Virus record (IMG/VR): IMGVR_UViG_3300017598_000257
Location: 1 to 28,321 of that record
Reading direction: 5' to 3' (one strand)
Length of the DNA stretch: 28,321 bases
DNA from: a virus
Made by a program: the position numbers and the translations under genes. The notes beneath the pieces were generated by a model. It ran no database searches. It was given only the letters and a program-made list of their open reading frames with translations, and was not told the DNA's origin. Below, in pieces: positions 10,396 to 28,085 of this stretch. Numbering within the stretch: position 1 is the stretch's first letter; the number at the start of each line of letters is the position of its first letter.

Positions 10396-11241
10396 TTAAG
10401 TTCCTATTGCTATCCAACTAACAATCTTTGCTCCACCTGAAGCATGATATAAAGTAAATTGCGAACCACTATTAATAACAACACCTGTTGCTGCTGACGA
10501 TCCTGCATAAACATTACTTGTTGTTACTTTATATGTTGTTGCTCCTGTAAAAGGTAAGTTTGTAACCGTCTCGCCATCAAGTCCATCTGAGATAGATAAT
10601 TGTCCATAAGCAATATACACATCGGATGTCTTTGTTGTCGAACTACTTCCTGACGTTCCATAATCATAGACAGTTGCTATTGCAGGAGTTGTTACTTCAA
10701 TCGAGGCCGAGTAATAATCATTATCGTTCAATAAAGTATCTGTATCATCTTCGATGTCTCCGTCAGAATCGTTATAAAACTGTCCTAGACGAGTATAACT
10801 CGTTAAACCTGTCGGAGTCGATGAGTTCGTTGATATTTTTCCGGTGAATGTTGTTGCGTCAGCGTCGCATACAGCATAAACATAATAGGTCGTGCTGTTT
10901 GCTTCTGCTCCTTGATCTATATCAGCCCACGTTAAGATAGTATCAGAATCATTCTTGCGAAATTTTACTACTGTACCGCCAGAGTTCTGGCAAGAAACCT
11001 CTCCCTCTTGTATTGTTATAGTCGAGGCTGAAGTGTATGTAACTTCAGCGTTCTCGCGATAGTTATTCAGAAGCCTATCGAGAGGATCAACAATGTCCTG
11101 ATATACCTTTGTGTCAATATCAGAAACATTCTCAGTTCCGAGAATTGTCTCCTCTCCGGATCCTCCCCTCCACTCGTTTGCTGCAAATACTGGGCTACTG
11201 ATTAATGAGAGAATCATTATTAGGGTAATTAATTTTTTCAT
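10396..11241 (-). CDS. Exported fibre-like protein with signal peptide (281 aa)
   Basis: It begins MKKLITLIMILSLISSPVFA, a classical Sec signal peptide with likely cleavage before ANEWRGG. The mature part opens with NEWRGGSGEETILG and a helix (IVDPLDRLLNNYRENAEV), then Thr/Ser/Asp-rich beta structure that includes TYYVYAVCDADATTFTGKIS and RLGQFYNDSDGD. This layout is seen in small phage tail or fibre proteins: a conserved N-terminal attachment segment and a beta-rich body. The C-terminus (YHASGGAKIVSWIAIGT) is beta-rich. A strong SD (AAAAGGAGGAAGT) sets the start. The attachment role is inferred; the export signal is read directly. Confidence 0.78.
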   Translation of the reverse strand: MKKLITLIMILSLISSPVFAANEWRGGSGEETILGTENVSDIDTKVYQDIVDPLDRLLNNYRENAEVTYTSASTITIQEGEVSCQNSGGTVVKFRKNDSDTILTWADIDQGAEANSTTYYVYAVCDADATTFTGKISTNSSTPTGLTSYTRLGQFYNDSDGDIEDDTDTLLNDNDYYSASIEVTTPAIATVYDYGTSGSSSTTKTSDVYIAYGQLSISDGLDGETVTNLPFTGATTYKVTTSNVYAGSSAATGVVINSGSQFTLYHASGGAKIVSWIAIGT

Positions 11242-11252
11242 ACTTCCTCCTT

Positions 11253-11837
11253 TTAAGTTTTCATTATAAATGCCAAAGCATAATATTTAGGCAAATAATC
11301 ATTGCCACCACCAACATTATTATCAGCAGTTAATTCGTTTGGCCCTTTATCTCCCGCACTCCAAGTCGATTCTCCTGCGCCGCCTGATCCAACATAATTG
11401 TGGACAGTATACGATAAAGGATGTGTGTGTGCAGGTATTTGCGAACTACTTATCGTTCTTGATCCACCAGAAGTCCCTTGCTCTATTGTTCCAGATCCAC
11501 CACTATCATAATCTGCGTGAAGAATGAATCTATCTTCAAGATCCGGCGTTCCATTATTCCCGTCACAGAGAACCCATCCAGAAGGTATGGTAGCAATTGT
11601 TCCGCTCCACATAATAATTCCACCAGAAGGAAAAGAGTTTATTGCAGCTATATCAGTATCTATATCATCTTCTAACTCTTCAATATCGGAAAAAAGATTT
11701 CTTAATTCTTCATTAATGACAGGCAAAGAACCTTCTTTGAAGTCAGCGACTACTTCTTGAGAAACCGAGTTCTTTCCCAATGCTATAACTATACAGCATA
11801 GCAATAGTATAGTTGTAATATAGTTATGTTTCCTCAT
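11253..11837 (-). CDS. Tail-collar domain protein with signal peptide (194 aa)
   Basis: Residues about 75-194 match the Phage Tail Collar domain: GGIIMWSGTIATIPSGWVLC, then DGNNGTPDLEDRFILHAD, SSQIPAHTHPL and a closing YLPKYYALAFIMKT. Such domains usually form the base of receptor-binding fibres. Residues 1-27 form a hydrophobic signal-like segment (ITTILLLCCIVIALG) preceded by MRKHNY. The cleavage site is less clear than in the neighbours, perhaps near SVSQ. A short acidic helix (IEELEDDIDTDIAAI) could trimerise it. The ATG overlaps the preceding stop (ATGA), and AGGAGA lies 7 bases upstream. A collar protein with an export signal is unusual. Confidence 0.85.
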   Translation of the reverse strand: MRKHNYITTILLLCCIVIALGKNSVSQEVVADFKEGSLPVINEELRNLFSDIEELEDDIDTDIAAINSFPSGGIIMWSGTIATIPSGWVLCDGNNGTPDLEDRFILHADYDSGGSGTIEQGTSGGSRTISSSQIPAHTHPLSYTVHNYVGSGGAGESTWSAGDKGPNELTADNNVGGGNDYLPKYYALAFIMKT

Positions 11838-14206
11838 GTTAAATTCTCCTGCACGTCAAAAACTATCATAATTTTTCTAATCTTTATTGGATTCTCACTA
11901 TCTTCCGTAATATCCAATCGGATCAACTCTCCGATCATATTTCCGTCTGGAAAATAGTCTATATAATAATCGGGGTATTCAAGTAAATCAATATTGAAAG
12001 TATCTGTCTCGCCCTGTATGCTCTCGAAATCTAAATTCAGTATTCCCGAAACACTTTCGTCCCAATCATAATAAACATATATTTTCCTCAACTCTTTAAC
12101 GTACCCAGGATAGCCTAAGTCAAGCCATCCTGACCGCCACCTGATAGGAATATTATCTTCAGAGATAGAACCGGCAGTATTATAAGTGATTCTGACAACA
12201 TACCCGCTGGTCTTTGTCAGCGTAGGCGTTTGAGTAATCGTGTTCGAACTCATATTAATACGATATTGAAGTATCGTGTCTGCCGTTGCAGATGAAATAT
12301 CGCCACCATCAGGATCCGTGAACCCTGTTGTCCATCCGGCTGTTGAGCAATCTGTTGTCGTAGATCCACTTCTTAAATCAAATGTCACATTCCCGCCACC
12401 AGACGGGATAGTTTCATTCCAATAAATCTTATCAAGAGACGAGGCATTGACCGTCAAATAATCAGATGTATAAATTCCGTCAGTATCAGGACGATCAATT
12501 ACAACTGTATCAAAAGTTACATCATCAATAATTCCAGTCCAATCCGGATCGTTCGTTCCGTCTATCGTAGTTGTCCACGCCAACTCAAGAATCGGGTTAT
12601 CAGCCTCACCTCCAACACTCTCTGGAATATAACGAATGTCGTCAAATGTTCCATCAAAATCTGCGTGTCGGTTATGATTAACACCCTTCTCCGTGTCCGT
12701 GTGGGCATAAATAATTCCAGAACTAGATGATCCTGTAAACAAAGCCTCAATATCCGTTCCGGAATTAAACACATGGAGAACATTCAACGCCATCGTATCA
12801 ACATTGAACGTCTTGCCTATCAAGTCAACAACCAAAACCCTGTCATTGTCAACGGCTCCTGTTTCCGTCGAAGTATATGTTAAATAATAACTGTTTTTGT
12901 AATAAGCCGCCCACGCTTCCGGAAAACTGGAAGGTTGAATATCTTTGATTGTCGGCGCAATCGGATCAGACAGCAATTCTGAGTACTGTCCATTAAAATT
13001 GTAAAGACCATTGTTCCCTAAATACATGATCCCAATATCGGTCGGAACGCAACTATATGGAGCCTGAACTCCTATAAAACTGTACGGATCCGTGACCTCC
13101 CAATCTGCGTCGGGATCATCTTTTCTAGTGTCAATTTTCTGCCATGTGTTATTCTTTGAGACTGTAAGCAATCCGAGCCAATTCTGTAAACAAGTTATCT
13201 CATCGCCATCATTAGGCCGGATATTAAAATAAGCCGAACTATCAAAATAATCGTGACTCGCATCTTCACTATAAAATAGTCTTGACGGATTATCTGAGTT
13301 ATTTCCAAGCCAAAGCCTATTCTTATGAACTAAACCAAACCTTCCTTTTGGAACCGTGTATGTTGCATCCTCAGAGATAGCCGCGCCAAGTTCTGCGTCA
13401 GTATCAGAATCCGTAATCGAGACTGTCGTGTTGTTATTTATATCTCCATTTGACAATAAATACCAAGTTGATTCTCCGTTCTTGTTTCGATAGACTTCTC
13501 GTCCATTAACACTTTCCCCTAATATTGAATCAGGGCAAATAGGGATCATCGATAAGGTTATATCGTTTCCGGCCATCACGACAGAGTTTGACTCAACACC
13601 TAATAAAATATCATAAGAGGATGTCGTGCAAGCAACCTTATATGTGTATGTTCCAGTTGGCCCAGTTCCGGATCCGGCATCAATCGCTAAAGCCGTTCCT
13701 AAATATGTCGCTGAAGCTGAAGTTCCATCATATTTTACTGGTTGGTTAGACCCGTCCGTTCCGATTGCAATATCATGCCACGTTGTCCAATCCCAACGCT
13801 TTGACGATGTTGGAACCGTTAAGATTGTTGTTGGCAAACCAGTTCCTTCATCGCAAGTTGCAATAGTGCTTCCATGATTAACGATCGTTACCTGAGTACC
13901 GCCTTTCATATAAAACCGATGAATACCAAGAATCGGATCTGTCGCATGAGCGGTACATGACGTTATTTTCGGATCCCGTTTTGTCAGAGATTTGTATTCT
14001 GCATCTAACCTTAAATTCTCAACGACGTCCCCTTGAGACTTCGGGAGAGAAAACTGGTTCATTTTCGTATTCAGGCCACCACTAAAATCATCAAACTGAT
14101 AGATCAGATCTGTACTTTGTGCAAAGGCCGAACTAACGAGTACCGTGCCGAGAAGTACCCCTATAACCAACTTTAGACCGCATTTGTATAGTCGAGTGTG
14201 TTCCAC
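11834..14206 (-). CDS. Conserved phage tail protein with signal peptide (about 790 aa)
   Basis: The mature protein opens with DLIYQFDDFSGGLNTKMNQF, the start typical of a large podovirus-type tail protein (nozzle or stabilisation type), which is followed by blocks of beta-propeller/beta-sandwich sequence. Such a protein usually follows a head-tail adaptor, as here. I chose the GTG at 14206 because GAGG lies 6 bases upstream; a GTG at 14218 gives four more residues. No ATG, GTG or TTG lies in frame between the hydrophobic segment and M52, so KLVIGVLLGTVLVSSAFA must be translated. It has a positive N-region, hydrophobic core and AFA end, a Sec signal peptide. Bases 14133-14206 also encode the end of the preceding gene. 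The ATGA overlap at 11834 couples it to the collar gene. Confidence 0.8.
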   Translation of the reverse strand: MEHTRLYKCGLKLVIGVLLGTVLVSSAFAQSTDLIYQFDDFSGGLNTKMNQFSLPKSQGDVVENLRLDAEYKSLTKRDPKITSCTAHATDPILGIHRFYMKGGTQVTIVNHGSTIATCDEGTGLPTTILTVPTSSKRWDWTTWHDIAIGTDGSNQPVKYDGTSASATYLGTALAIDAGSGTGPTGTYTYKVACTTSSYDILLGVESNSVVMAGNDITLSMIPICPDSILGESVNGREVYRNKNGESTWYLLSNGDINNNTTVSITDSDTDAELGAAISEDATYTVPKGRFGLVHKNRLWLGNNSDNPSRLFYSEDASHDYFDSSAYFNIRPNDGDEITCLQNWLGLLTVSKNNTWQKIDTRKDDPDADWEVTDPYSFIGVQAPYSCVPTDIGIMYLGNNGLYNFNGQYSELLSDPIAPTIKDIQPSSFPEAWAAYYKNSYYLTYTSTETGAVDNDRVLVVDLIGKTFNVDTMALNVLHVFNSGTDIEALFTGSSSSGIIYAHTDTEKGVNHNRHADFDGTFDDIRYIPESVGGEADNPILELAWTTTIDGTNDPDWTGIIDDVTFDTVVIDRPDTDGIYTSDYLTVNASSLDKIYWNETIPSGGGNVTFDLRSGSTTTDCSTAGWTTGFTDPDGGDISSATADTILQYRINMSSNTITQTPTLTKTSGYVVRITYNTAGSISEDNIPIRWRSGWLDLGYPGYVKELRKIYVYYDWDESVSGILNLDFESIQGETDTFNIDLLEYPDYYIDYFPDGNMIGELIRLDITEDSENPIKIRKIMIVFDVQENLT

Positions 14207-14813
14207 GATTAACCTCACCTTTCATCCAGGTTACAAAATCATTGTATTCTTTTTCTGATGATTCAGCCTTTCCAGGCTTTTTAACCTTACCTGAGAAAAC
14301 TCTTTTCGCTAAATAAAGCACTATTGAATAATGAAATGGCTCTAAATATGTCAATTCATTAAATGGCAGTTTATTGTCATCATCGAAATCGTCTGAAACC
14401 AGAATCGCGTCAACTATGATCGTATTCGCAGCGTCCGGAGGAGTCCCTAATATCATATATTGATTTCTTCTGTAATAATCCACAGGTGTTCCATTTGAAG
14501 CTGATCTCCAACTTGGCCTCTTCTGATCAAGACTTGCCTTCGTTTCCATATCGAGACGCTTGTTGTTATAATTAACTCCACCGCCAGGATATTCATTTAT
14601 GTCATAAAATTTGCTTATGACGTTAACCAAATCATATTGGCTTATTCCAATGGACGCCGTAATCTCCGTTTCTTCTTTAATAACACGAGTTTTCGCGCAG
14701 ACCTCTTTATCGCCAACCTGACACCACGATTCGAGAACAGAATCACTCGCAACATTTGAAGTGATCTCCGGATTCTCTTGCCGGAACCTTGTAATTATTT
14801 CTGATCTTGTCAT
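14133..14813 (-). CDS. Head-tail adaptor-type protein (226 aa)
   Basis: The N-terminus, MTRSEIITRFRQENPEITSN followed by DSVLESWCQVGDKEVCAKTR, matches the start of a family of phage head-tail connector (adaptor) proteins that sit under the portal. The middle carries KLPFNELTYLEPFHYSIVLY, expected in such small helical adaptor proteins. It has no signal peptide. AAGGAGA precedes the ATG. The last 25 residues are basic and overlap the first codons of the next gene by 74 bases, so this tail could be longer than the family norm. Position before the large tail protein agrees with the call. I am less sure of the exact structural class than of its being a virion connector. Confidence 0.75.
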   Translation of the reverse strand: MTRSEIITRFRQENPEITSNVASDSVLESWCQVGDKEVCAKTRVIKEETEITASIGISQYDLVNVISKFYDINEYPGGGVNYNNKRLDMETKASLDQKRPSWRSASNGTPVDYYRRNQYMILGTPPDAANTIIVDAILVSDDFDDDNKLPFNELTYLEPFHYSIVLYLAKRVFSGKVKKPGKAESSEKEYNDFVTWMKGEVNRGTHSTIQMRSKVGYRGTSRHGTR

Positions 14814-14822
14814 AATTTCTCC

Positions 14823-15290
14823 TTACTTTATTAGGAGAATGAACATGGTTATCGGCAAAGAAAAACCACGGCCACATTCCTCCACATAATCATTCTTTGA
14901 TAAAGCTGATATTCCTCCCATCAATACAGATACGGCAATGCACCGTATTACTATCAGATACCATTCGACGCCACCGATACCTAAAGGAAAAGCCGCCAAC
15001 CCACACATGAATCCATGAACCCAGAAATTATCGTATCCAAACAGAAAATCCCAATATGTGGTCAATGCTCCGAAAAGAAATAAAAATGATAATAATATCC
15101 AATACCATTGAACCGACAAGAAAATCATTCCAACAGCACAGCACAAAGCACAACCAACATCTCTAGCTTTTGTATTAAACAACCATTTTGGCATCTTAGG
15201 AAACTGCTGTCTCCCACTATCACCCATCCCGCCAAGCCGATATAAAATTGCACTCAAGAACGATAAAAAAATAATAATAGCTATCTGCAT
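14823..15290 (-). CDS. Conserved phage membrane protein (155 aa)
   Basis: An integral membrane protein with about four to five hydrophobic segments: IAIIIFLSFLSAILY, GCALCCAVGMIFLS, ILLSFLFLFGALTTY, WYLIVIRCIAVSVLMG and a C-terminal segment. Between them are conserved-looking polar motifs RLGGMGDSG, WLFNTKARDVG and GYDNFWVHGF, which I have seen in phage membrane proteins of unknown function. It could be a holin-class or host-interaction protein. The start overlaps the stop of the lipoprotein gene (15281-15290), which implies translational coupling and a shared lysis or envelope role. The biochemical role is unknown. Confidence 0.75.
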   Translation of the reverse strand: MQIAIIIFLSFLSAILYRLGGMGDSGRQQFPKMPKWLFNTKARDVGCALCCAVGMIFLSVQWYWILLSFLFLFGALTTYWDFLFGYDNFWVHGFMCGLAAFPLGIGGVEWYLIVIRCIAVSVLMGGISALSKNDYVEECGRGFSLPITMFILLIK

Positions 15291-15514
15291 CTGTCTGCCT
15301 CCTGCAAGACCGCAGAGAACTGCCGTTTCTCAAGACACCAAAATTCCACGTTGCCATCCATTACGATCCTAGGAGGCGTCTCTGCGATCTCGTCTTTTTT
15401 TGAGAATGTTTCGCACCCGCTTATGAATACGAGAAATACGCTTATTGTCAACGTCAGAACGAATAGACCTTGACCGGTAAGCACGGTATTTCTCAACGAT
15501 AAATTTCTTAACAT
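15281..15514 (-). CDS. Lipoprotein, candidate outer-membrane spanin (77 aa)
   Basis: The N-terminus contains the hydrophobic core LTLTISVFLVFISGC; ISGC is a lipobox, so C34 would be lipid-modified after signal peptidase II. The mature part is about 44 residues and contains PPR, FWCLEK and a final cysteine (C76), which fits short Rz1-like o-spanins. The start at 15514 has no strong SD, so translation may depend on the overlapping upstream gene. Bases 15369-15514 also code, in another frame, for the 66-residue basic protein. In position and frame (+1 relative to that gene) the arrangement echoes Rz/Rz1 nesting. A phage lipoprotein of another role is the alternative. Confidence 0.68.
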   Translation of the reverse strand: MLRNLSLRNTVLTGQGLFVLTLTISVFLVFISGCETFSKKDEIAETPPRIVMDGNVEFWCLEKRQFSAVLQEADRCR

Positions 15515-15569
15515 TTTCGTATTTTTCGATAGCCCAACTTGCTATCCCGATTATTCTCTTAATTGACAT
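15369..15569 (-). CDS. Small basic protein overlapping the lipoprotein gene (66 aa)
   Basis: Starting at the ATG at 15569 (or 15572; the two ATGs are adjacent), the frame reads MSIKRIIGIASWAIEKYENV and ends in a strongly basic tail (RVRNILKKRRDRRDAS). The start lies inside the last codons of the preceding gene, and this gene fills a gap that would otherwise break an otherwise fully coupled gene series. It overlaps the lipoprotein gene by 146 bases. There is no real membrane segment, so it is not a standard i-spanin. It may be a cytoplasmic, nucleic-acid- or membrane-binding peptide. It has no SD of note, and its reality is less certain than that of its neighbours. Confidence 0.5.
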   Translation of the reverse strand: MSIKRIIGIASWAIEKYENVKKFIVEKYRAYRSRSIRSDVDNKRISRIHKRVRNILKKRRDRRDAS

Positions 15570-15762
15570 CATCGTTGTCAGGAACGTCAAGCAATTCCCG
15601 AACCTTTGCACATAACGGAAGAACGATTGCATCATCAATTTTGTTTTCACTATTAGCAACCATATCCTCAATCTTGTCTAACAATGCGTCAACCAACTCC
15701 TTGAACTTATCTTTCGGTAATAGGGTTAAAATTATGTTGATTATTTGTGATATTAGGTTCAT
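15559..15762 (-). CDS. Small helical protein (67 aa)
   Basis: The sequence MNLISQIINIILTLLPKDKF followed by KELVDALLDKIEDMV and an acidic end (VPDNDDVN) predicts an N-terminal amphipathic or weakly hydrophobic helix and a second helix. It could bind the membrane surface. Its ATG overlaps the stop of the 72-residue gene (ATGA). I do not recognise a family. Position in the lysis-like cassette suggests an accessory membrane function, which is inference. Confidence 0.6.
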   Translation of the reverse strand: MNLISQIINIILTLLPKDKFKELVDALLDKIEDMVANSENKIDDAIVLPLCAKVRELLDVPDNDDVN

Positions 15763-15977: not shown

Positions 15978-16267
15978 TTATGCCCGTTAATTCTTGCTAG
16001 GGTTGCTATCATTTCTCCATGCTCTTTAGCACTTGCAGTATGGTCTAGTCTAACTTGTGCTTGAAATTCTTTTGCACTAACAGTATTTTCTTTGACATTT
16101 TCCGCAAATCCTTTAAGTATTTTTTGATGTTCTATATTAGATGCTTCATAGGCTTCTAACCTTTTTTCATTAGACTGTACAACCCACTTTAGCCCAAGCA
16201 TCATACCGCCAAAAATAACTCCAGCCATGCCAAACTGTGCTAAAGAGGCAATTAAGTGTTCATTCAT
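15974..16267 (-). CDS. Holin-like single-TM protein with coiled-coil tail (97 aa)
   Basis: Residues about 6-29 (IASLAQFGMAGVIFGGMMLG) form a membrane segment starting close to the N-terminus, followed by a long polar helix rich in Glu, Lys and Gln. One N-terminal membrane helix with an extended charged helix is seen in BhlA/UviB-type holins and related small phage membrane proteins, and also in i-spanins. The ATGA overlaps on both sides show that it is translated with the 64- and 72-residue genes. Holin is the best guess; an i-spanin is the alternative. Confidence 0.65.
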   Translation of the reverse strand: MNEHLIASLAQFGMAGVIFGGMMLGLKWVVQSNEKRLEAYEASNIEHQKILKGFAENVKENTVSAKEFQAQVRLDHTASAKEHGEMIATLARINGHK

Positions 16268-16458
16268 AGTTTCTGCTCCAGTTTTTCAAGGATTACTGTC
16301 TGCCTAAGGTTGATGAACTCGCTCTCTCTTATTCTTACATCATGCTCTTCAACAACCTCTTCTGTTTTATTAGCTTTCTCATGTAATTGTCCATACCCAA
16401 AAACAACTCCTACAACAGCAAGGACAACAGTAACTATTATTGCAATGTATTTTCCCAT
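16264..16458 (-). CDS. Single-TM coiled-coil protein, candidate i-spanin or holin partner (64 aa)
   Basis: MGKYIAIIVTVVLAVVGVVF is an N-terminal membrane anchor, followed by a charged helix (EKANKTEEVVEEHDVRIRES) with heptad spacing. This is the layout of a small inner-membrane spanin: one membrane segment and a periplasmic coiled coil. It is shorter than most. The gene shares a TAATG junction with the exported 116-residue protein upstream and an ATGA junction with the next gene. Pairing with the lipoprotein encoded at 15281-15514 would complete a two-component spanin, but the two genes are not adjacent. Confidence 0.62.
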   Translation of the reverse strand: MGKYIAIIVTVVLAVVGVVFGYGQLHEKANKTEEVVEEHDVRIRESEFINLRQTVILEKLEQKL

Positions 16459-16808
16459 TAGTCTGTATAAAAGTCTATTTTAACCTCTTCTCTAATTATT
16501 CCGTTATCATCACAAAGAGTTTTCCACCCTGAGTTTACTGTCGCTAAAGTTCCTTCCCCTGCACCACGCTTTACATAACCTAAATGAATAACAATGTTAG
16601 GCGGGTCAAGCAACGATGTCTGGACTTTAAATCTAACCTTATCAAGACCTGCTCCTGACGCAAAATTGTTATAATTCGTCCACCAAGTACCTAACTCACT
16701 ATATGTAGTTTCAACTCTCCCATACATAAAGAAGTTCATTAAACTAGCCGCACTTGCTGTTGATGTTAGAAAAACTGTTAGTAATAAAATAAGTAATGTT
16801 TTTTTCAT
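16458..16808 (-). CDS. Exported hypothetical protein with signal peptide (116 aa)
   Basis: A textbook signal peptide (MKKTLLILLLTVFLTSTASA, cleavage at ASA) precedes a mature part of about 96 residues that starts ASLMNFFMYGRVETTYSELG and continues with beta-rich sequence. No conserved domain is recognised. AAGGAG overlaps the stop codon of the fibre gene upstream (TAAGGAG), which links the translation of the two. Position directly after a large exported fibre suggests a small accessory or chaperone of the fibre, or a tail-decoration protein; nothing in the sequence decides between these. Confidence 0.72.
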   Translation of the reverse strand: MKKTLLILLLTVFLTSTASAASLMNFFMYGRVETTYSELGTWWTNYNNFASGAGLDKVRFKVQTSLLDPPNIVIHLGYVKRGAGEGTLATVNSGWKTLCDDNGIIREEVKIDFYTD

Positions 16809-16817
16809 TTTTTCTCC

Positions 16818-19800
16818 TTATGAATCGTCCCTTATATATTCCATTCGCATATTAGCTGGGTTTGTAAATGTACCACCAATGTCTACTTCTACGTTTTGAA
16901 CCCACGCTTCTAAAGCAACAACCTGTGCGGCATTAAGTGATACAATAATTTCGTTAGAACAAGATGTTCCTGGATTAGTTGAGATTCTTGTGTAAGAAGC
17001 ACACTTTGAATATTCTAAAACAGTTCCCCCAACAGACACACCAGCATATGCCCAATAACGAGTTGCAAGGTCTTGGTCAAAATTAACAGTAAATCCTATC
17101 TTATAAAGACCATCTTTTTGGATAGTAACACTTCCACCACTCTCTGAATAGTAGTCACTATCCTCAATAACGACTGTATCTAAATCTAAAATCGTTTCAG
17201 CTACTACACCAGCAATCTCCGCACTTGCATAAGCAAAATAGTATCCATATTTTGAAACCATGCCAGTCGTTCTTAGTCCGTCAGTATCAATAGACAACGC
17301 TTCCGTTCCATCTACATCAATATCTAAATCAGTCCCTGCTGAACTATATTCAATCTTTGTATCAGCCAAAGCAGAACCAGCAGTTCCTTCAAGATATATG
17401 CCAACATCTTGAGGAACAACAATAGCTTCATTAGAAAAAACACCATAATTATTTGTTGTGATTGAGCCATCATACTGCTTAAATTCTGCTACGTGCAATC
17501 CGTAATTATTAACAGTTGCTGCATCAGAACCTGCATTAGCAATACCTTGTGAATGTATAACGCTAACACCATACATATTTTGCACTGTTCCTGCTGATAA
17601 GGAAATATCCGTATCTACCCCAATAGCCGCCGATAAGTTATAAAAACTGTTTGTTCCGGCACTATCATTGTTTAACTTTATTCTTGATAAAATACTATAG
17701 TTGCTTGCAATGTCTGTTTCTAACGTAGCAAAAGATAGTATGTTTGAAGCTGAAGAACCGCTTGTATAAGTATAATCAAAATAAAGCGAACCTCTTAACG
17801 ATCCTGATGCTTGAGCATAAAGAGCAAAATTTGAACTTGCTTCATTTCCAAGTATTCCGATATGACCATCTTCATCAACAACAAAAACAGGATTTGCGGC
17901 AGAATCTTCTACTCTAAAGATATCATTGTTCTGTGTTGAATGTGCTTGAACTGTCATCTGCGTTGCGTCTGTATCGCCATCAACAATCAAAGAACCTGTA
18001 ATATCGGAATCAGCGTCTATTCTTAATCCTGTATCTGCAACAAAATCCAAATACCCATCATCATCGGATTCAATATATACAGCGGCATCGCCAAACGAAA
18101 TATAATCATCTAACGCCATAAGAATCCCTGTATCTGCCACATGGGTAATAATAACGTCCTGACTTTCGCCAAGTTGAATTGTTGCACCATCACTATCAAG
18201 GAACAAATCATCTTGAAGGGTAGCATCGTCAGTTGATGATAGTTGCTCACCTGTGATTGTTGCTGTCGTTGTAATATTATCATCTGCAAAATCAGCGTCA
18301 CCGCCTGCTGCAATAAACTTTAAATCTCCAGTATTAGAATCAATGTAAGAATCTGTGCCATCGGAATAAAGGTCAAAGTCTTGGTCTGCACCTAGCTGAA
18401 GTTTATTTGAATCTGAATCTAATTGGATGTCACCTGCAAAGAAGTTACTCGCATCACCGTCTTCTTGATAAATTCCCCAATAATTTGTAATGGCTACTGT
18501 TGCAGTTGAAGGATCAGCTAAAAATAATTGATAAACATTATCTATTGTAGGACTTCCAGTTGAAGCACCATCAACTTCTGCAAATATCAAATAGGTATCT
18601 GTAACTTCAGAGTTTGATGTTCCAGCAACCCCCGCAGAAACATTAAGTCCATATTGTGTTGAAACAACCCCTGTCCCTTCGTGCGTGTTAGAAACAAGCA
18701 ATCCAGCCAAAGCACCCGTATAATCTGCTGAACTTTCTGTTGCTACCGAAACACCTGTATTAGTACCGATTGAAAACTTTGAAGTATTTGTATCTCCTAT
18801 AAAAGTATTTCTTGCGTTTATTGCATAAGCCCCTGTTGTGACATCTGCGTCTAAATCTGCAAGCGTCCATCCAACAGTTAATTTTGCATCGTCGCTTGTA
18901 GCCATTCCAATACTTGTTGCCCCACTATCTGCAACTTCAAAATAAGTCAACCCCGAATCATCATCATCAACCCTAAACAAATAATCCCCTACATCTTGCG
19001 TTGTTCCAACATATAAAGGTTTCTCTACCCAAAGATAATCAGCATCCAGAATCATTACATCGCCACCACCAACTCCCATAGTTAGCTTGTTGGGGTTGCT
19101 AGTTGTATCAAGATACGTCTGAAGGTCTGCTGAATATGCTTTGATTGCATACGCACATTTCCAATAATCATTTGTTTCGTTCCAAAACAATCCTTGTCCA
19201 CCGTTACATCCTTGAAGAAGCGAGAGTTTATCCGTATCAACATACTCTAGTCCGCCTGCCTCTTCTGTTGTTGCACTTAAAGCATCTGTTTCTGCTGTCA
19301 AAAGAGAAAGAGCAGAATGAACATTCGTACAGTCCGTACAATCAATCGCAGGTGTAGCATCGCAACTCTCTACTGCACCCTTAGTATCAACTCCTGCTGG
19401 TACTTCACCAGCACCACAGTTTGCACCATTAGCTGCGAGGTCTGTTGCTGTTGTAGCATTACCTGCTAATGCTCCCGTAAAAGTTGTTGCAGCTAGATTA
19501 GCTGTGCCTGCATTATAAGTAAGTCCACCATCTGTTTTTACTGGCAAACTCCCAGTTGCGCTATCAAATATAGCAGGAAAAGAAGTCGTGTCTGTTCCGT
19601 CTATGACAACAACAGTTGATGCAAGAGTTGCTGTACCTGCATTGCCAGACACATCTCCAGTTACGTTTCCTGTTAAAGCACCTGCAAAACCTGTAGCTGT
19701 TACTAACCCTTTATCTGGACTATAATGAAAGTCACCATCTGACTCTAAGTTAGTGTTATCTGTAGTGAATACAAGTTCGTGGGCATCGTTGGTAGCTTCG

Positions 19801-21818
19801 TCATCAGAAACAGTTACTGTAGTAGCTAAAGTAGCTAAATCAATAGTAATGTCATTATCAACTTCTGCATCTGCAACAACACTTCCGCCAGCTACTAAGT
19901 CACTAGCTGTGAGAGTGTTTGATACATCATCATCATTAAGAACAGTTGCTGTTATTTGTTGGGTAGATAAAGTAAGATAATCTTGTCCTGCCAATGTTAC
20001 TGATGCGTGATGTGCTGAACCACTATGAGTTGCATCTACCGTTGGACTCGCCCATGTTCCTCCTAGTTCACCACCTGGTGTTTCTGTTGCATTATATACA
20101 GCATTACCACCTTCAGTTATCGTAGTACCATTTATCGTTCCTGTTGCTGTTAAGTCACCATAAGCTGAAGAAGAAACTACTGCTTTCGTACCTGCCCCAG
20201 TAAATCCATCGGCAGCATCTAGACTAACAAATGCACCATTTAAAGTATCACCAGCAGCTACATTACCTGCATAGTTATTGGCAAATCCTTCAACTACCCC
20301 TCTATTAGTTAAAGCATTTATCAATCCACCACCTGCTGAAGTGTCCATGTAAAATATATATCCTGTACCATTACCTGCTGACTGTAGGTCAATATGACAA
20401 TTCTCAATTTGTTTATCTGTTCCTGTTCCATGAAGATAAAATGCACCTGCTGCACCTGAAAAAGAAGCATGATTAAGACTTATATGCATAATCATATTCT
20501 TAACTATACCTGCTGTAATAGTTGCACCTGATGCTTCATTAATACCTACGACTATATCGTCAACATCATCTACATTTATGACAAATTCACTATCATAAAT
20601 ATGATAAACATCTGTCCCTGATATTAAAATTACACTATGTGTTTCAGAACCAGCTGATGTGCCGTCTAGGTCATACTTAAATAACGTATGATTAAACTCT
20701 ATGTCCCCACCTGTTTGTGAAAGAAGATTACCTCTAACACCATTTGTAGAAGAAGTCATTTTCAGATAAGTATTATAAATATCTAATTCACCATCCGTCA
20801 TAGCTAGAACTATTGCACCATCTGCTGTAGGAGTAGAACTTAACTTAATATTCATAATCAAGGCATCACTTGTTCCTGGTGGTGCTGTTACTGTCGTTCC
20901 ACTTGCTGAAGTTATATGTGTTGTTTCGTGGTCAAAACCTACCAAAGAAACATATTCTTCCATAACAACATTTTCGGTATAAGTACCTGGGTGTATAAGG
21001 ATTGTATATCTTTTATCTGTTGCATTGTCTGTAATAGAATCTACAGCATCTTGAATTACATCATAATCTCCACCTGCTTTAGCTACTGTTACAACTTGCT
21101 GATAGATATTCGTTAATCCTTGATTGTCCATATCAAGAATACCTGTCATTGTGTCACCAGATTCAAGGACATATTCATCATCATGTATTCCTGAATCTAC
21201 TGTCGGACTTGCCCAAGTACCACCTAGTTCACCTTGAGGAGTAGCTAGAAAAGCATCATATATATCATCTTTTTCAGGACTGTCTGTATCACCATCCCAT
21301 CCTGCACCATATGCTCCATCAACACCATCGTCATCGTCAGTTACTTTTGCTGTATTAGCTGTTACTGCTGTTGTTGTAGATATACCAACTGTTTTAGTAG
21401 CTTCACCATCATCTTCTAAACTTAATTGAACATTATCTCCAGCTACGCTAAACACATCTATTGTTTGGTCGTCTGTTTCGCTAGAGATATACCCTGCTGC
21501 TGTATTCTCTGCCTCTGTCCATACATCTCCTAGAGCCAACTCTTGATTGTTAAGCGTTAAGATCGTGTCTGAAGTTGCTGCTAGAGTAACAGGATTGTGA
21601 ACAGAACCAGATTGATCAATCGTAATCTCTGTTTTACTTCCTGAATTTTCAATCGTAGTAATCGCCGTTCCCTTAAAATTAAGAATCGGCTGTTGGCGCA
21701 TAGTAGTACCATCATTCTGAATGATATGGCCTTCGTTGCATTGTCCATCAACCCAAACGGTACAGGCATTTGCATTGACAGTAATTAATATTAAACAAAT
21801 AAATATAAGTTTTTTCAT
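16818..21818 (-). CDS. Large exported tail fibre/adhesin with beta-helix and C1q-like tip (1666 aa)
   Basis: The ATG at 21818 is preferred over one at 21857 because AAAGGA lies 5-6 bases upstream and it gives a proper signal peptide (MKKLIFICLILITVNANA). A conserved attachment module follows (VDGQCNEGHIIQNDGT and QQPILNFKG), shared with the 417-residue protein. The motif GELGGTWASPTVD occurs at 196-208 and 583-595. Residues about 240-515 form a pectate-lyase-like parallel beta-helix (IQDAVDSI, ILIHPGTYTENVVM). Fibre-type beta repeats follow (GALTGNVTGDVSGNAGTAT at about 710-733; LQLGADQDFDLYSDGTDSYI further on). Residues about 1529-1666 look like a C1q/TNF-like jelly roll (DGLYKIGFTVNFD), expected to trimerise the tip. 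It probably binds host surface polysaccharide or protein. The stop overlaps the SD of the next gene. Confidence 0.85.
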   Translation of the reverse strand: MKKLIFICLILITVNANACTVWVDGQCNEGHIIQNDGTTMRQQPILNFKGTAITTIENSGSKTEITIDQSGSVHNPVTLAATSDTILTLNNQELALGDVWTEAENTAAGYISSETDDQTIDVFSVAGDNVQLSLEDDGEATKTVGISTTTAVTANTAKVTDDDDGVDGAYGAGWDGDTDSPEKDDIYDAFLATPQGELGGTWASPTVDSGIHDDEYVLESGDTMTGILDMDNQGLTNIYQQVVTVAKAGGDYDVIQDAVDSITDNATDKRYTILIHPGTYTENVVMEEYVSLVGFDHETTHITSASGTTVTAPPGTSDALIMNIKLSSTPTADGAIVLAMTDGELDIYNTYLKMTSSTNGVRGNLLSQTGGDIEFNHTLFKYDLDGTSAGSETHSVILISGTDVYHIYDSEFVINVDDVDDIVVGINEASGATITAGIVKNMIMHISLNHASFSGAAGAFYLHGTGTDKQIENCHIDLQSAGNGTGYIFYMDTSAGGGLINALTNRGVVEGFANNYAGNVAAGDTLNGAFVSLDAADGFTGAGTKAVVSSSAYGDLTATGTINGTTITEGGNAVYNATETPGGELGGTWASPTVDATHSGSAHHASVTLAGQDYLTLSTQQITATVLNDDDVSNTLTASDLVAGGSVVADAEVDNDITIDLATLATTVTVSDDEATNDAHELVFTTDNTNLESDGDFHYSPDKGLVTATGFAGALTGNVTGDVSGNAGTATLASTVVVIDGTDTTSFPAIFDSATGSLPVKTDGGLTYNAGTANLAATTFTGALAGNATTATDLAANGANCGAGEVPAGVDTKGAVESCDATPAIDCTDCTNVHSALSLLTAETDALSATTEEAGGLEYVDTDKLSLLQGCNGGQGLFWNETNDYWKCAYAIKAYSADLQTYLDTTSNPNKLTMGVGGGDVMILDADYLWVEKPLYVGTTQDVGDYLFRVDDDDSGLTYFEVADSGATSIGMATSDDAKLTVGWTLADLDADVTTGAYAINARNTFIGDTNTSKFSIGTNTGVSVATESSADYTGALAGLLVSNTHEGTGVVSTQYGLNVSAGVAGTSNSEVTDTYLIFAEVDGASTGSPTIDNVYQLFLADPSTATVAITNYWGIYQEDGDASNFFAGDIQLDSDSNKLQLGADQDFDLYSDGTDSYIDSNTGDLKFIAAGGDADFADDNITTTATITGEQLSSTDDATLQDDLFLDSDGATIQLGESQDVIITHVADTGILMALDDYISFGDAAVYIESDDDGYLDFVADTGLRIDADSDITGSLIVDGDTDATQMTVQAHSTQNNDIFRVEDSAANPVFVVDEDGHIGILGNEASSNFALYAQASGSLRGSLYFDYTYTSGSSASNILSFATLETDIASNYSILSRIKLNNDSAGTNSFYNLSAAIGVDTDISLSAGTVQNMYGVSVIHSQGIANAGSDAATVNNYGLHVAEFKQYDGSITTNNYGVFSNEAIVVPQDVGIYLEGTAGSALADTKIEYSSAGTDLDIDVDGTEALSIDTDGLRTTGMVSKYGYYFAYASAEIAGVVAETILDLDTVVIEDSDYYSESGGSVTIQKDGLYKIGFTVNFDQDLATRYWAYAGVSVGGTVLEYSKCASYTRISTNPGTSCSNEIIVSLNAAQVVALEAWVQNVEVDIGGTFTNPANMRMEYIRDDS
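20034..20072 (-). repeat. Coding repeat GELGGTWASPTVD, copy 2
   Basis: This segment encodes residues 583-595 of the fibre, identical in protein to copy 1 at 21195-21233, although several third-codon positions differ. It marks the junction between the beta-helix region and the following fibre repeats. Different codons argue for an old duplication. Confidence 0.75.
21195..21233 (-). repeat. Coding repeat GELGGTWASPTVD, copy 1
   Basis: This segment encodes residues 196-208 of the fibre, just before the beta-helix region. Together with copy 2 it brackets the beta-helix, which suggests that the helix domain is a swappable module between two conserved linkers. Confidence 0.75.
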
Positions 21819-21826
21819 AGTTCCTT

Positions 21827-24800
21827 TCATTCTATTGAGAATCCCGCCATAGTACATCCTCTCATTAATCCGACACTAGCCGGTGGATCTACTGGAGGTT
21901 CTTCATCATCACCGTCAATCCATTGTTGAATTTCTAATTCACTCAACGCCCTTCCGAATATGAACATAACATCAACCGTTCCATCAATCCAACTCTCGGA
22001 TCCAGAAGCTGTCACCGGATAGTTTGAACTGTTCCCCCATCCGCTAATCAATAAGTCTTTGCTATTCTGGCCGGAGATCGATGCACAATCATCTACACCA
22101 GTATCAACAAAGACTCCATCAAGGCTGAGCTTCATCAAACTGTTTGACGTATCACGAACACCGCAAATATAATGATCTTCTCCTGCCGTTACAGTATGAG
22201 GAGAAAGAGTTGCATTACAAGTTGATGAACCATCACCTATCTGAAAAATCAAAAGTCCTTCGTTTACATCTCCTGTAATATACATCTCGTACCAATCCCC
22301 ACCGCTCTGTCCGTGTCCTTTATGAAATAAACTCTGGCTTGGCTTACCGGAATGATCTTCGAAATTCACTTTCGTGCAAATTGTGAAATCCTCGTCGGCA
22401 AAGTCAATTTCCCCCTCATGTGCAACAGATATATAATCGTCAGAACTAAACTCAAAATCGTACGCATCTCCAGTTCTTGTTGTAATACTAGATATTGTAC
22501 CGTCATTTGACGTTGAATCCGCTGAACATATATCCAGAAGATCTCCTGCCGATTCATTAAAATTATAATATGCCAGACAATCGGCATCGCTTATCCCACC
22601 AAATTCTGAAGGAACAGGACACGAATCTAACTGACATTTTGGAGATTCATCTGGACACCAAGTACAGCTTGCTGTATTACAATCAACTTCATAAGTACAT
22701 AAATCACAATGTTGATTATCACAAACCGCGTCACAAGCATCTGATTGACAAGTATCGCCATTACACCAATTACAACTTGGCCCAACTCCAGTACAATCGC
22801 CTTCAGTAGAACATTCTGAACATTGACTTGAACAAGTAGGAGGCGGAGATCCGTCAGATATAACGGCAAGAACTTTACTTCCCACTCCATCACTCAACGT
22901 AAACCTCGCCAATCCAGAAGCATCAACAGATAATCCTGTGCTTGCCCCTCCATCAATAGTGTAATTCCATGTCAAAGCAGGATCTAAATCGCCTATAAAA
23001 ACGTCGACATCGCCACCTGCCGGTATTGTTACTGAAAAACTTGTCTGAAAATATCGAAGATCTTTAAGTTCATTAAGTCTATTGTAATTATGATTACTCT
23101 GACTTGGCGTTCCCGTAAGACCAATAGATGATGTTCCATTAAATATAACAACCGTTTCTTCGTCGCCAGTATCAATATGCAATCCCTCGGCATCTTCGCC
23201 AGAACTAGATAACTCTGTCACGGTAGGATTGACACCTACTACAAAAGAATTAAGAAATGTCTGCCATTCTGCATTTGACGTTGAAATAAGCCTTGTTTGA
23301 TAAGTACATTGAGATTCATTAAATGTTCCTCCTACTAAACCGCAATCGTGGCCATCATAAACAAGGTCAAGAGTATCATAGTCATAACTTGGAATCTGAG
23401 TATCCCAATAAACCGTCTCTCCATTCTCGGCTGTCCATGTAAACCTATCACCAGATCGTGACATAGCAGAAGGCGAGTGCATAATATAATAATGCTTGCC
23501 ACTATTAGCTACTATTAAGTTGTAAAAGTATCCTCCACCAGAAGCAGCATACCTTTGAAAATTATCTGTACTAAGACAACTCTCAAGAGTAGGATTACAA
23601 CCATTAACTCTATCGAAATTAACAATAATATCATGGCCACCTGACGTATGTTTATAGAATATTGAGGGAGTATATTCCCTAAGATGTTCATGAGGCGGAT
23701 TATAATATCCTGAATATGTTTGAAGTCCTCCAGCAGTACCTACATGATAAGAATAATCTGTTCCAATTTTCGAAGCAGTTTGCTCTCTTGCTTCAGAAAC
23801 GCTAGAAGGAAATGCTCCACTTGCTAATAATCCATTCATATAAGAACCTTCTACATGAGCAGATTCAAAATATCCTTTTGGATTATGAATTGCCCATCCG
23901 CCTTGTCTATATAAATTAAAATTATCAAACCCATTCTTTTCGTGATCCACCCAAGTTCTCCCCTTAATATGGCTCCAAAACAAACTATCGTTAGAAGAAA
24001 AGCCATCCTTAAAATACGTCGTTCCAATTCCTGGATTATTTCTAGTCAATAATCCAGTAGGCTCTGTTCCTGCCCCTGTCTTTGCATATATAAGCCAATG
24101 ATCTACTAGCTGATTTGAATTTTGCCATAACTGATCAAATAAATATCTAAGACCATCATCGTTATCAAGAGTAGCAAGCGTAGCATAATTCGGTACTCTC
24201 CTTGCTATCATAAGATTTTCAGCATAAGAAGTATCTCCCCATTGGACTACATTACTCCTATCCGGAGTAATCTGAGCCTTCATAGTGTCAGCAAACTCTT
24301 CGTAAAAACCTGTAATTTCTGGAAAATAATCTACTCCAAAATAATCATTTAGTGTCTTAGCAGCAATCAAAGCATACGTTAAAGTATTCAAATTGTATTG
24401 TGAACTTTCAATCCACTCTCCTTGAGCAATAAGTTCAAACATCCATTCTATTGCGTTTCTAAGAGAATTACTTTCAGCTTGATCTGCATCAATTCCTCCA
24501 ACACTATAAGTATTACCTGGACTCGTTGGCCTCATATTTCCTTCATAATTAAGAATATAATCTGATCTAGTTAAATCATCTGATCTTATTGCATAAGCAA
24601 ATAAAATCATTCCAAAATAATGTCCTATCGTTTCATCAGAATCGCTTGCTCTTGTTCCATGATTATCATGCCACGGTCCACCGTTATCATCGTTAAGACA
24701 AAGATCTGTCCAAAAATTCAAAACATCCTTGAAATTTGCACAATTCGTTGCTCCAGCCGCAGGAGTTCCTGCATCATCTTCACAAATATAGCTATAAAGC

Positions 24801-25150
24801 AGAGACATTCTCACAAACCTATGCCTTGTATCGTTTTTACTAGGTATCCATCCTTCTGTATTATAAGTTCTTCCAGCATACCAGTTGACTCTTTGCCATG
24901 CCTCAACAGCATCAGAATTAGAGCCAGTAATTAAATAATATATCGCGCTATTAATCCCTAAATTCTCATCGTATTGTGTTCCTTTGCGATTCACTACATA
25001 CTGCCAGAACTTATGCCCAATTTCCCCGTCATCTTTAAGGGCTGTCCAATCGGTATCTTGTTGCGCTGACCAAAAGGAATTGACCGCGCCAAAAACATTT
25101 GTCGCATAAATTAAGAAAATAAAGATTATAAGAGTTGATAATTTTTTCAT
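21827..25150 (-). CDS. Exported heparinase II/III-like polysaccharide lyase with 2x8-Cys repeats and LamG domain (1107 aa)
   Basis: Signal peptide: MKKLSTLIIFIFLIYATNVF, cleaved near VFG. Residues about 25-360 are helical and Trp/Tyr-rich, as in the alpha/alpha toroid of heparinase II/III-like lyases. Residues about 376-740 are beta-rich and contain KGRTWVDHEKNGFDNFNLYR (H403) and ESAHVEGSY (H432), close to the family pattern of His-rich motifs at the toroid/beta-sandwich junction. Residues about 766-850 hold sixteen cysteines in two tandem eight-Cys repeats, each with a C-x2-C pair of the form CNWC or CTWC. Residues about 855-1075 look like a LamG/concanavalin-type carbohydrate-binding domain (LAYYNFNES, SWIDGTVDVMFIFGRALSEL), and the C-terminus is short and polar (VGLMRGCTMAGFSIE). 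The likely role is depolymerisation of acidic capsule or EPS. Its start shares a TAATG junction with the stop of the 417-residue fibre gene. The specificity is unknown. Confidence 0.8.
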   Translation of the reverse strand: MKKLSTLIIFIFLIYATNVFGAVNSFWSAQQDTDWTALKDDGEIGHKFWQYVVNRKGTQYDENLGINSAIYYLITGSNSDAVEAWQRVNWYAGRTYNTEGWIPSKNDTRHRFVRMSLLYSYICEDDAGTPAAGATNCANFKDVLNFWTDLCLNDDNGGPWHDNHGTRASDSDETIGHYFGMILFAYAIRSDDLTRSDYILNYEGNMRPTSPGNTYSVGGIDADQAESNSLRNAIEWMFELIAQGEWIESSQYNLNTLTYALIAAKTLNDYFGVDYFPEITGFYEEFADTMKAQITPDRSNVVQWGDTSYAENLMIARRVPNYATLATLDNDDGLRYLFDQLWQNSNQLVDHWLIYAKTGAGTEPTGLLTRNNPGIGTTYFKDGFSSNDSLFWSHIKGRTWVDHEKNGFDNFNLYRQGGWAIHNPKGYFESAHVEGSYMNGLLASGAFPSSVSEAREQTASKIGTDYSYHVGTAGGLQTYSGYYNPPHEHLREYTPSIFYKHTSGGHDIIVNFDRVNGCNPTLESCLSTDNFQRYAASGGGYFYNLIVANSGKHYYIMHSPSAMSRSGDRFTWTAENGETVYWDTQIPSYDYDTLDLVYDGHDCGLVGGTFNESQCTYQTRLISTSNAEWQTFLNSFVVGVNPTVTELSSSGEDAEGLHIDTGDEETVVIFNGTSSIGLTGTPSQSNHNYNRLNELKDLRYFQTSFSVTIPAGGDVDVFIGDLDPALTWNYTIDGGASTGLSVDASGLARFTLSDGVGSKVLAVISDGSPPPTCSSQCSECSTEGDCTGVGPSCNWCNGDTCQSDACDAVCDNQHCDLCTYEVDCNTASCTWCPDESPKCQLDSCPVPSEFGGISDADCLAYYNFNESAGDLLDICSADSTSNDGTISSITTRTGDAYDFEFSSDDYISVAHEGEIDFADEDFTICTKVNFEDHSGKPSQSLFHKGHGQSGGDWYEMYITGDVNEGLLIFQIGDGSSTCNATLSPHTVTAGEDHYICGVRDTSNSLMKLSLDGVFVDTGVDDCASISGQNSKDLLISGWGNSSNYPVTASGSESWIDGTVDVMFIFGRALSELEIQQWIDGDDEEPPVDPPASVGLMRGCTMAGFSIE

Positions 25151-26403
25151 TAACTACCTAATCTTATCATTGAAAATTCAGGAGAAAGGTTACCAGTAGA
25201 GCGAATATTTAATGGCCCTCCAGAATTTTGATAAACATAAACTTCAACATAATCTGTTGCACTTAAAGAATAAATAGTAGATATAGACATATAAGTTGTA
25301 TCGCCATCAGAATGTCTAGAGATATGACCAGCCAACTTTGTTGTTCCATTTAATTCAACAACAAGCCATCTATTTCCAGAGGCACTACCATCAAATTCAA
25401 CCGAAGCGGTAATTAGATAAATTCCAGCCGTTGTCGCTGTCAACCTTGAATTGTTTGTACTGTTATCGTGGATGGTATCTGTGTCGTACCTCTCGGCATT
25501 AAACGCAAGAGTTACATCAGTAGTGTCTGCAATCGACTGTGTCGTGTTGTGATACGCCCTCGCCCATATTGTGGGAAGATCAACAGTTGCTCCAGACATA
25601 TCTATTGCTCCTAAAAAAGTAGTCGTTTCATCGCCAGCATCTGTCTCAATTAACGTAACAGTATCGCCACTCACTCTAAAATCATGAGTCTCTGTTGCTC
25701 CTGCTTCATTATTTACATAAAGACCTTCATTTATAATATATCTTCCGGATGCTCCCGAAGAAATCGCTCCTGTTACTGTCAGATCACCATTGACTGTCAC
25801 GTTTCCGCTATCATCTTCAACGGTGTCGCCTGTTTGGATAATGAGTCCGGTTGTACCGTCATACCTGGCGAATGAATGATCGGTGACGTTTCCAGTTCCG
25901 GTGACATTACCACCAGACGGATTCTGGCAAGGATCAGCTGATGCAACAAAACGACCAAAGGCATCAAGTTCAACACATTTACCACTCGTCAACGCTCCTG
26001 CTGTAACGGCAAAATAACCATCCTTGTCATCCGGTATAGTTATCGTCGTATCGCTATCCGGATCCTCAACCTTAATTGTGATCTCTTCTGTGTTATCACT
26101 ATCACCTTCCAGAACCATAATCGTTTCATTGTCATCGCCATCTACCAAACAAGATCCTGTTGTACAAGAAGGCCCAACAGAGGATATATCACCACTTCCT
26201 GATGTAATAGCTACATAAGTCTTTACGCTATCGCTCGTCGCTGTTACGCCCGCACCTGTAAAGTTCAGGTATGGAGATTGACTTATAGATGTTCCTTCGT
26301 CTTGGACAATAAACCCTGCTGTAGTTCTGCCATCAGTAAAGATTTCCTGAGCGTTGGCAGAAGTCGCCAATAACAAACATAGTACAAAGATTAGTTTTTT
26401 CAT
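25150..26403 (-). CDS. Exported fibre with C1q-like C-terminal domain (417 aa)
   Basis: MKKLIFVLCLLLATSANA is a Sec signal peptide, cleaved before QEIFTDG. An attachment module (about 20-62; TAGFIVQDEGTSISQSPYLN, then FTGAGVTA) matches the one in the 1666-residue fibre. Low-complexity Asp/Thr/Ser-rich beta sequence fills the middle. Residues about 280-417 form a C1q-like jelly roll: WARAYHNTTQSIADTTDVTL, AGIYLITASVEFDGSASGNR, YVEVYVYQNSGGPLNI and a final MIRLGS. The last parts match C1q-like domains of phage fibres very well. It is expected to form a trimeric receptor-binding tip. The ATGA junction with the coiled-coil gene implies coupled expression. Confidence 0.85.
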   Translation of the reverse strand: MKKLIFVLCLLLATSANAQEIFTDGRTTAGFIVQDEGTSISQSPYLNFTGAGVTATSDSVKTYVAITSGSGDISSVGPSCTTGSCLVDGDDNETIMVLEGDSDNTEEITIKVEDPDSDTTITIPDDKDGYFAVTAGALTSGKCVELDAFGRFVASADPCQNPSGGNVTGTGNVTDHSFARYDGTTGLIIQTGDTVEDDSGNVTVNGDLTVTGAISSGASGRYIINEGLYVNNEAGATETHDFRVSGDTVTLIETDAGDETTTFLGAIDMSGATVDLPTIWARAYHNTTQSIADTTDVTLAFNAERYDTDTIHDNSTNNSRLTATTAGIYLITASVEFDGSASGNRWLVVELNGTTKLAGHISRHSDGDTTYMSISTIYSLSATDYVEVYVYQNSGGPLNIRSTGNLSPEFSMIRLGS

Positions 26404-27290: not shown

Positions 27291-27299
27291 AATTCACCC

Positions 27300-27644
27300 C
27301 TAAAGTTCTGATGTTTTGATCTCTAAATATACCGTTCCAACTCCATTGGCATTGGTACAAGTGACCTTCAACTCATCACCTGCCAAGAAATTACACTCTC
27401 CCTGTGGACGAAATACGAAATCAGTTTCAGCAACCATCGTTCTTCTTGCCAAAACAGCATCGTAATTCACACCATTAGCTGAATCTCTTGTGATTATGAC
27501 AGTTTCAGAAATAGCTTGTGAAGCATGGAGAGTTACCTCTTCCAACTTAAACTGTCTGGCGATTGCCGTCGTCTTTGATAAGGCGGCCGTCCCCAATGCC
27601 TGTGAAGCCGTAATTGGCTTTCTTTGGAAATGTGCTGTTTTCAT
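27300..27644 (-). CDS. Small beta-rich virion-type protein (114 aa)
   Basis: The sequence (MKTAHFQRKPITASQALGTA at the start; TVIITRDSANGVNYDAVLAR and LAGDELKVTCTNANGVGTVY later) alternates hydrophobic and polar residues as in a single beta sandwich. Small proteins like this, with a 'RDSANG'-type turn and 'LAGDELKVTC'-type edge strand, are common near tail and fibre genes of phages. There is no signal peptide. AAAGGA precedes the ATG. I would call it a decoration or tail-accessory protein with low certainty about role. Confidence 0.68.
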   Translation of the reverse strand: MKTAHFQRKPITASQALGTAALSKTTAIARQFKLEEVTLHASQAISETVIITRDSANGVNYDAVLARRTMVAETDFVFRPQGECNFLAGDELKVTCTNANGVGTVYLEIKTSEL

Positions 27645-27647
27645 ATA

Positions 27648-28085
27648 TTATTCCTTTCCAACTTTGATCTGTAGCATTGTATCGACATCATTGCTTCCTT
27701 CTCCTGTGACCTTAAACCTCCCGACAGGCATCGCAACACTATCAACCGTAGCCAGATGCCAAAGCTGATCGACAAGTTCCGTATCCACATGATTAGTGAC
27801 CTTGAAATAATCACTTGCTGATCCTTCTGTCGCAGGATAAGTGTACCCCTGCTCAAAGTCGATATTAATATCAATCGTTCCGGCGTTTGTGACCTTATAC
27901 ATCACGCCCATATCAACGTCACCCTGACGCTTGATCCAAAACGCCTTTGTATAAAGAGTATTCGTAGATGGAACATTAAATACAGTCTCGTTCGTAGCTG
28001 ATTCAACCGAGTAAATCCTTCGGTCTGCTGATGCGCTACCGGCACAAATTAGGATTGCCACCATGATTAATATGATTCTTCTCAT
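27648..28085 (-). CDS. Exported small beta-rich protein with signal peptide (145 aa)
   Basis: MRRIILIMVAILICAGSASA is a Sec signal peptide with cleavage after ASA. The mature 125 residues are beta-rich (VFNVPSTNTLYTKAFWIKRQ, AGTIDINIDFEQGYTYPATE) and contain DTELVDQLWHLATVDSV. It resembles the downstream 114-residue protein in style but not in recognisable sequence. GGAGGAG precedes the ATG, which shares a TAATG junction with the gene before it. It is the first in transcription order of the eight signal-peptide-bearing late proteins. The function is unknown; a tail or surface accessory is likely from context. Confidence 0.72.
   Translation of the reverse strand: MRRIILIMVAILICAGSASADRRIYSVESATNETVFNVPSTNTLYTKAFWIKRQGDVDMGVMYKVTNAGTIDINIDFEQGYTYPATEGSASDYFKVTNHVDTELVDQLWHLATVDSVAMPVGRFKVTGEGSNDVDTMLQIKVGKE

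Follow-up and report, generated by a model that had tools for sequence, protein, structure and literature searches.

Podovirus tail nozzles, known from T7 (gp12), P22 (gp10), Pa223, SU10 and crAss001 (the muzzle), and the Sec-routed virion proteins of filamentous phages are the described systems with which the locus examined here is best compared. The virion proteins of M13/f1 carry Sec signal peptides and cross the inner membrane before they join the particle; tailed phages, to our knowledge, are taken to assemble entirely in the cytoplasm. The window, i.e., the whole stretch of DNA analyzed here, is an IMG/VR virus fragment of 28,321 bases whose late genes lie on the minus strand, as do the window features given below; these genes encode a predicted podovirus nozzle as one of eight late proteins with predicted Sec signal peptides.

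Signal peptides on the late proteins of the window

Signal peptides were called with a rule that combines charge, hydrophobic core and the residues at positions -3 and -1, and all calls reported here are predictions of this rule from sequence; it recovered 26 of 26 known E. coli signal peptides, with a median score of 8.22. When T7 and P22 were scored with the same rule, no known virion protein was flagged, only small hydrophobic, holin, spanin or membrane proteins and one P22 ORF of 69 aa (function unknown). The first-pass annotation had credited eight late proteins with Sec-type N-termini; all eight ORFs are present at the positions given below and pass the rule with scores of 7.55-9.63, and the proteins show the n-, h- and c-regions with the -3,-1 residues that are characteristic for Sec and signal peptidase I substrates. 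As an exported set the eight are nonetheless incomplete, since the product of 15281-15514 also has a lipoprotein-type signal.

The 145-aa protein at 27648-28085 (phrog_28213, unknown function) has a signal peptide of 20 aa ending ASA/D (28026-28085; score 9.63; the slash marks the predicted cleavage site). The 417-aa fiber-like protein at 25150-26403 (18 aa, ANA/Q, 26350-26403; score 8.91) matches the virion structural protein phrog_13989 with its C-terminal part. The 1107-aa protein at 21827-25150, with a 21-aa signal peptide ending VFG/A (25088-25150; score 7.55; the rule favors IYA/T), contains a Laminin_G_3 lectin domain (PF13385) and, ahead of it, a Cys-rich segment with 16 Cys in the 72 residues 773-844, for which a Pfam search gave no match. 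A 1666-aa fiber-like protein at 16818-21818 (18 aa, ANA/C, 21765-21818; score 9.22) and a 116-aa protein at 16458-16808 (20 aa, ASA/A, 16749-16808; score 8.76) follow; the product of 16264-16458 scores 7.27, but resembles an N-terminal membrane anchor. Beyond the large tail protein, which is treated below, the tail collar-domain protein at 11253-11837 (score 8.82; phrog_1800, E 4e-18) has a cleavage site that was rightly described as less clear; alignment with a relative (L002, AWA/GEVIVDYE) points to SVS/QEVVADF, and thus to a signal peptide of 26 aa. The 281-aa Mtd-like receptor-binding protein at 10396-11241 (20 aa, VFA/A, 11182-11241; score 8.46) has the second domain of Mtd (PF21916 mtd_2nd, 27.0 bits at a cut-off of 24.6). 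Searches of the phage collection by tblastn with the 281- and 145-aa proteins found no homologs.

The rule gave no score for the head-tail adaptor (14133-14813; phrog_399), the coiled-coil protein, the 114-aa protein and the three ejection-type proteins (9786-10382, 8916-9764 and 1167-8915), so that the earlier view of adaptor and ejection-type proteins as lacking signals is borne out; the last of these, a protein of 2582 aa, had no match in a Pfam search. The small lipoprotein at 15281-15514, whose signal ends FISG/C, is o-spanin-like by position and size, and small lipoproteins are found at comparable positions in relatives (L005, L007, L106, L102); this predicted lipoprotein signal suggests a diderm host.

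The large tail protein and the podovirus nozzle

The reading frame of the large tail protein, previously given as 794 residues, has its first possible start at 14218; since a GTGAGG motif precedes the GTG at 14206, the protein most likely starts there, and its length is corrected to 790 aa. From this start, a signal peptide of 29 aa (14120-14206; score 8.9) ends AFA/Q, and the mature protein occupies 11834-14119. An AlphaFold2 model based on 7 sequences was discarded (pLDDT 42.5); the model of the mature protein based on 32 sequences, which was used instead (pLDDT 86.1, pTM 0.78), matched the solved nozzles of Pa223 (Z 31.5 over 451 residues), VP1 (29.2), SU10 (29.0) and crAss001 (29.0), as well as P22 gp10 (27.9), GP4 (27.1) and T7 gp12 (22.1). 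A profile of 24 nozzle relatives matched the tail tubular protein B in PDB entry 9k09, chain U (E 8e-10); a profile from the close clade alone found no match among PDB sequences. In the window and in the clade loci that span both genes, the nozzle gene comes immediately after the adaptor gene, as it does in the known podoviruses; the fold, too, is shared with their nozzles over almost the entire length. Judging from the modeled fold, the 790-aa protein is a podovirus tail nozzle of the tail tubular protein B/gp12/gp10 type.

In the alignments with Pa223, P22 gp10 and T7 gp12, residue 2 of the solved chain pairs with residues 3-5 of the mature protein, so that the signal peptide directly precedes a nozzle that is otherwise ordinary and begins where nozzles normally do. 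The nozzle relatives share a conserved start, DFSGGLNTK, about 10 residues after the predicted cleavage site, and many relatives have an FSGGLNT-type N-terminal start; the known podovirus nozzles begin unsigned at the mature end, whereas those of the window clade have approximately 17-31 signal residues ahead of it. The position of the signal matters for the reading that export is only partial, through inefficiency or a late collapse of Sec, with a cytoplasmic share of the proteins building the virion and an exported share, for example, blocking superinfection or binding to neighboring cells. Fibers, lectin and Mtd-like proteins would plausibly be useful on the cell surface, and ordinary assembly could continue; yet an uncleaved signal would sit where nozzles normally have their N-terminus, and the conservation of the nozzle signal would be left unexplained, and we regard partial export as distinctly unlikely. 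Decoration of the host envelope, the second reading offered by the first-pass annotation, is possible for the fibers but can hardly account for the large tail protein, since the nozzle is a core part of the tail tube.

Conservation of the signals and their split by protein family

Close relatives of the nozzle (42-65% identity) turned up at 22 loci in scans of virus contigs, and 20 of these loci are distinct. The signal-peptide stretch is present in the window and in 19 of 19 distinct close relatives with a readable 5' end, a count that leaves out L100, where the gene is cut off; in L097 the stretch is present, but an insertion leaves no clear start codon. Over the first 20-30 residues the sequence is not conserved, but all 19 retain the n/h/c architecture; homologs have thus kept their hydrophobic N-termini. 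Several relatives derive from sample 3300035698, a co-assembly from Ace Lake, Antarctica (PMC8542988). Scans of genome contigs with nozzle and portal as queries found no prophage relatives.

More distant nozzle relatives (mostly 22-35% identity, approximately 70 loci) start with MPKQMLTLNDFSGG or a similar sequence at the mature position, without a signal. On the nozzle tree the signed nozzles require two changes, but in view of the long branches (L004, L033, L047) the trait may have arisen either once or twice. One distant relative (L033, 6202-9017) has an unsigned nozzle and an unsigned protein in the collar position, with three signed proteins (127, 306 and 368 aa) upstream; it is perhaps a partial form of the trait.

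The split between protein families extends beyond the nozzle. Signals are found in the nozzle, collar and Mtd-like families and in the families p123-130 (6 of 6), p145 (3 of 3, the family of the 145-aa window protein) and p254 (3 of 3), and are absent from the adaptor (0 of 22), portal, scaffold and MCP (0 of 4 each) and p114 (0 of 7); among the first ejection-type proteins, one of 12 was flagged, for what resembles a membrane stretch in a truncated ORF. Apparent unsigned members of signed families are truncated, have a miscalled start, or have a 5' end broken by an antisense HNH endonuclease gene. Such antisense HNH-type homing endonuclease genes, named by eye from sequence, occur in the late operons of L096 (4264-4900), L097 (4192-4750), L098 (3823-4650) and L094 (7367-7879); in the first three they lie directly at the 5' ends of signed genes (collar, nozzle and Mtd-like), and in L096 and L097 no clear start codon is left beside them.

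As a bait independent of the tail genes, the MCP brought in 24 additional contigs, which repeat the split: portal (0 of 22), scaffold (0 of 24), MCP (0 of 24), p114 (0 of 17) and adaptor (0 of 3) are unsigned, and p254 (5 of 5), nozzle (2 of 2), Mtd-like protein (1 of 1) and collar (1 of 1) are signed. The major head protein is of the phrog_371 type. In most contigs of the series L110-L136, a small signed protein (mostly 139-257 aa) is encoded right after the MCP, at the position of a head decoration gene. Two further features of relatives concern the packaging region: the L003 contig (L087/L088) encodes a putative GroEL (553 aa) and GroES (110 aa) between terminase and portal (3202-5192 of the reverse complement), and ORFs near the packaging genes of L018 (132-2378) and L106 (25-459) resemble intein (Hint) sequences.

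Among ORFs of at least 90 aa, called with our own script, 70 of 187 pass the rule in loci with a signed nozzle, compared to 3 of 264 in relatives with an unsigned nozzle (Fisher 3e-27, the relatives being only partly independent of each other); these proportions, together with 8 of 17 in the window, argue that the window signals are not due to chance. Wrong start codons or fortuitously hydrophobic N-termini could be suspected, as some nozzle starts are weak (GTG or TTG, or within the overlap with the adaptor gene); but the signals recur in 20 nozzle loci and in the 24 loci found by the MCP, they are rare in the control loci, and no alternative start exists at the mature end in the genes examined for one. 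The artefact explanation is largely refuted, and the probability that we would still assign to it is close to nil. As predicted from sequence, the export signals are a conserved trait that is coordinated across the outer tail and surface families and absent from the head families.

The cleavage sites themselves are informative. Twenty-two nozzle sites (the window, the 19 close relatives, and L015 and L018, two distant relatives of a second lineage), aligned by eye and lying at near-constant spacing from the conserved mature start, have Ala at -1 in all 22 and Q or E at +1 in 21; position -3 is L, V, A, I, T or C, and position -2 is variable. Hydrophobic N-termini might instead escape cleavage and serve a function within the virion, for example as membrane-active peptides at DNA ejection; tail tips of some podoviruses, such as phi29, insert into membranes. 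The invariant Ala at -1 next to a variable -2, the polar +1 residue and the basic n-regions speak for signal peptidase substrates and against retention, as does the occurrence of these N-termini on many unrelated proteins, including the collar and small proteins; uncleaved N-termini appear highly improbable, and they fit worst when set beside partial export and the docking of tails at the membrane that is discussed below.

Proposed assembly route and comparison with known systems

We favor, with a probability of roughly 60%, a two-compartment assembly in which the outer tail crosses into the periplasm and is joined with filled heads when the cell lyses. The cytoplasm would be the site where heads, portal, adaptor and ejection proteins come together, while the nozzle, the collar, the receptor-binding protein, the fibers and some proteins encoded beside the capsid gene would be translocated by means of functional Sec signals, cleaved by signal peptidase I and folded in the periplasm, with disulfides forming in at least one of them; lysis proteins would then open the inner membrane, and filled heads and finished tails would meet and join. 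The signals, their conservation, the family split, the nozzle fold and the coincidence of the predicted cleavage point with the usual start of nozzles are consistent with this route. Export with later entry into the particle, as the first-pass annotation had put it, is also the best reading since the signals are real, conserved and limited to outer tail and surface proteins; Sec export, cleavage, periplasmic folding and the timing of the joining at lysis are steps that we infer. As a caveat, proteins that fold before they are engaged by Sec could remain in the cytoplasm despite their signals.

The Cys-rich segment of the 1107-aa protein is as expected for folding in an oxidizing compartment. 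As a general cause of export, oxidative folding was considered and rejected: no difference in Cys count was seen between nozzles with and without a signal, and signed proteins overall are only slightly richer in Cys than unsigned ones (7.9 vs. 6.4 per 1000), so that the 1107-aa protein alone argues for it.

The second lineage, L015 and L018, places the boundary differently. Its nozzle, the protein in the collar position and two small proteins after the MCP have a signal-like hydrophobic N-terminus, some of these stretches scoring slightly below the cut-off; in addition, the adaptor begins with a signal-like stretch that ends exactly where the window adaptor begins, with two hydrophobic segments in L015, which is unusual. 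This adaptor cannot start in place, since the codon at the mature start is TTA or CTT. A scan for additional members of the lineage returned the same two contigs only. It is, in our estimate, slightly favored that the whole outer tail, including the nozzle and in this second lineage the adaptor, is exported by Sec as a periplasmic module and joins up with filled heads only at the inner membrane or across it.

Heads of P22 without the stabilizing tail proteins leak DNA, and filled heads that wait in the cytoplasm would therefore need another plug. The plugging of heads before lysis would be explained if tails were assembled at the inner membrane on its periplasmic side and filled heads docked from the cytoplasmic side, so that the particle is joined at or across the membrane before lysis in a docking- or extrusion-like manner; the signed adaptor of L015 and L018, which shifts the joint to the portal, also fits such docking. 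Against it, the late operons contain no visible candidate for a trans-envelope machine, and ordinary lysis genes (spanin-like) are present; membrane docking is unlikely.

If periplasmic tail assembly with joining at lysis is correct, a conserved export code that marks the tail module of a dsDNA tailed phage family by family would amount to a new assembly route, and the question would arise how filled heads stay plugged until the tails arrive. Compartment-specific assembly would become directly testable, and signal-peptide predictors could separate virion surface from internal proteins in such genomes. The titles and abstracts that were searched, in a coverage that leaves out preprints and most subscription journals, gave no precedent for signal peptides on virion or tail proteins of tailed phages.

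Parts of the pattern have counterparts elsewhere. In Podoviridae sp. ctLwi270 (MW202554), a distant nozzle relative, a lectin-like protein and a 164-aa late protein are signed, and the N-terminus of the collar protein is hydrophobic and ends ADA; in contrast to the window, its nozzle is unsigned, and only part of the pattern is seen. The Mtd protein of the Bordetella phage shares its second domain with the 281-aa window protein, to which the latter adds a signal peptide. With the filamentous phages (Inoviridae, M13/f1), the window shares the Sec route of virion proteins, as inferred here from the signals; in contrast to them, the major head protein, the portal and the proteins on the DNA side lack signals and are of tailed-phage type, and signals are confined to the outer tail and surface proteins. 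The membrane-inserted, signed major coat protein of filamentous phages is absent, the MCP being unsigned in each of the new loci found with it. Nozzle, adaptor, collar and MCP are of known kinds; what has no counterpart in the literature searched, as far as the predictions go, is a tailed phage whose tail module carries signal peptides.
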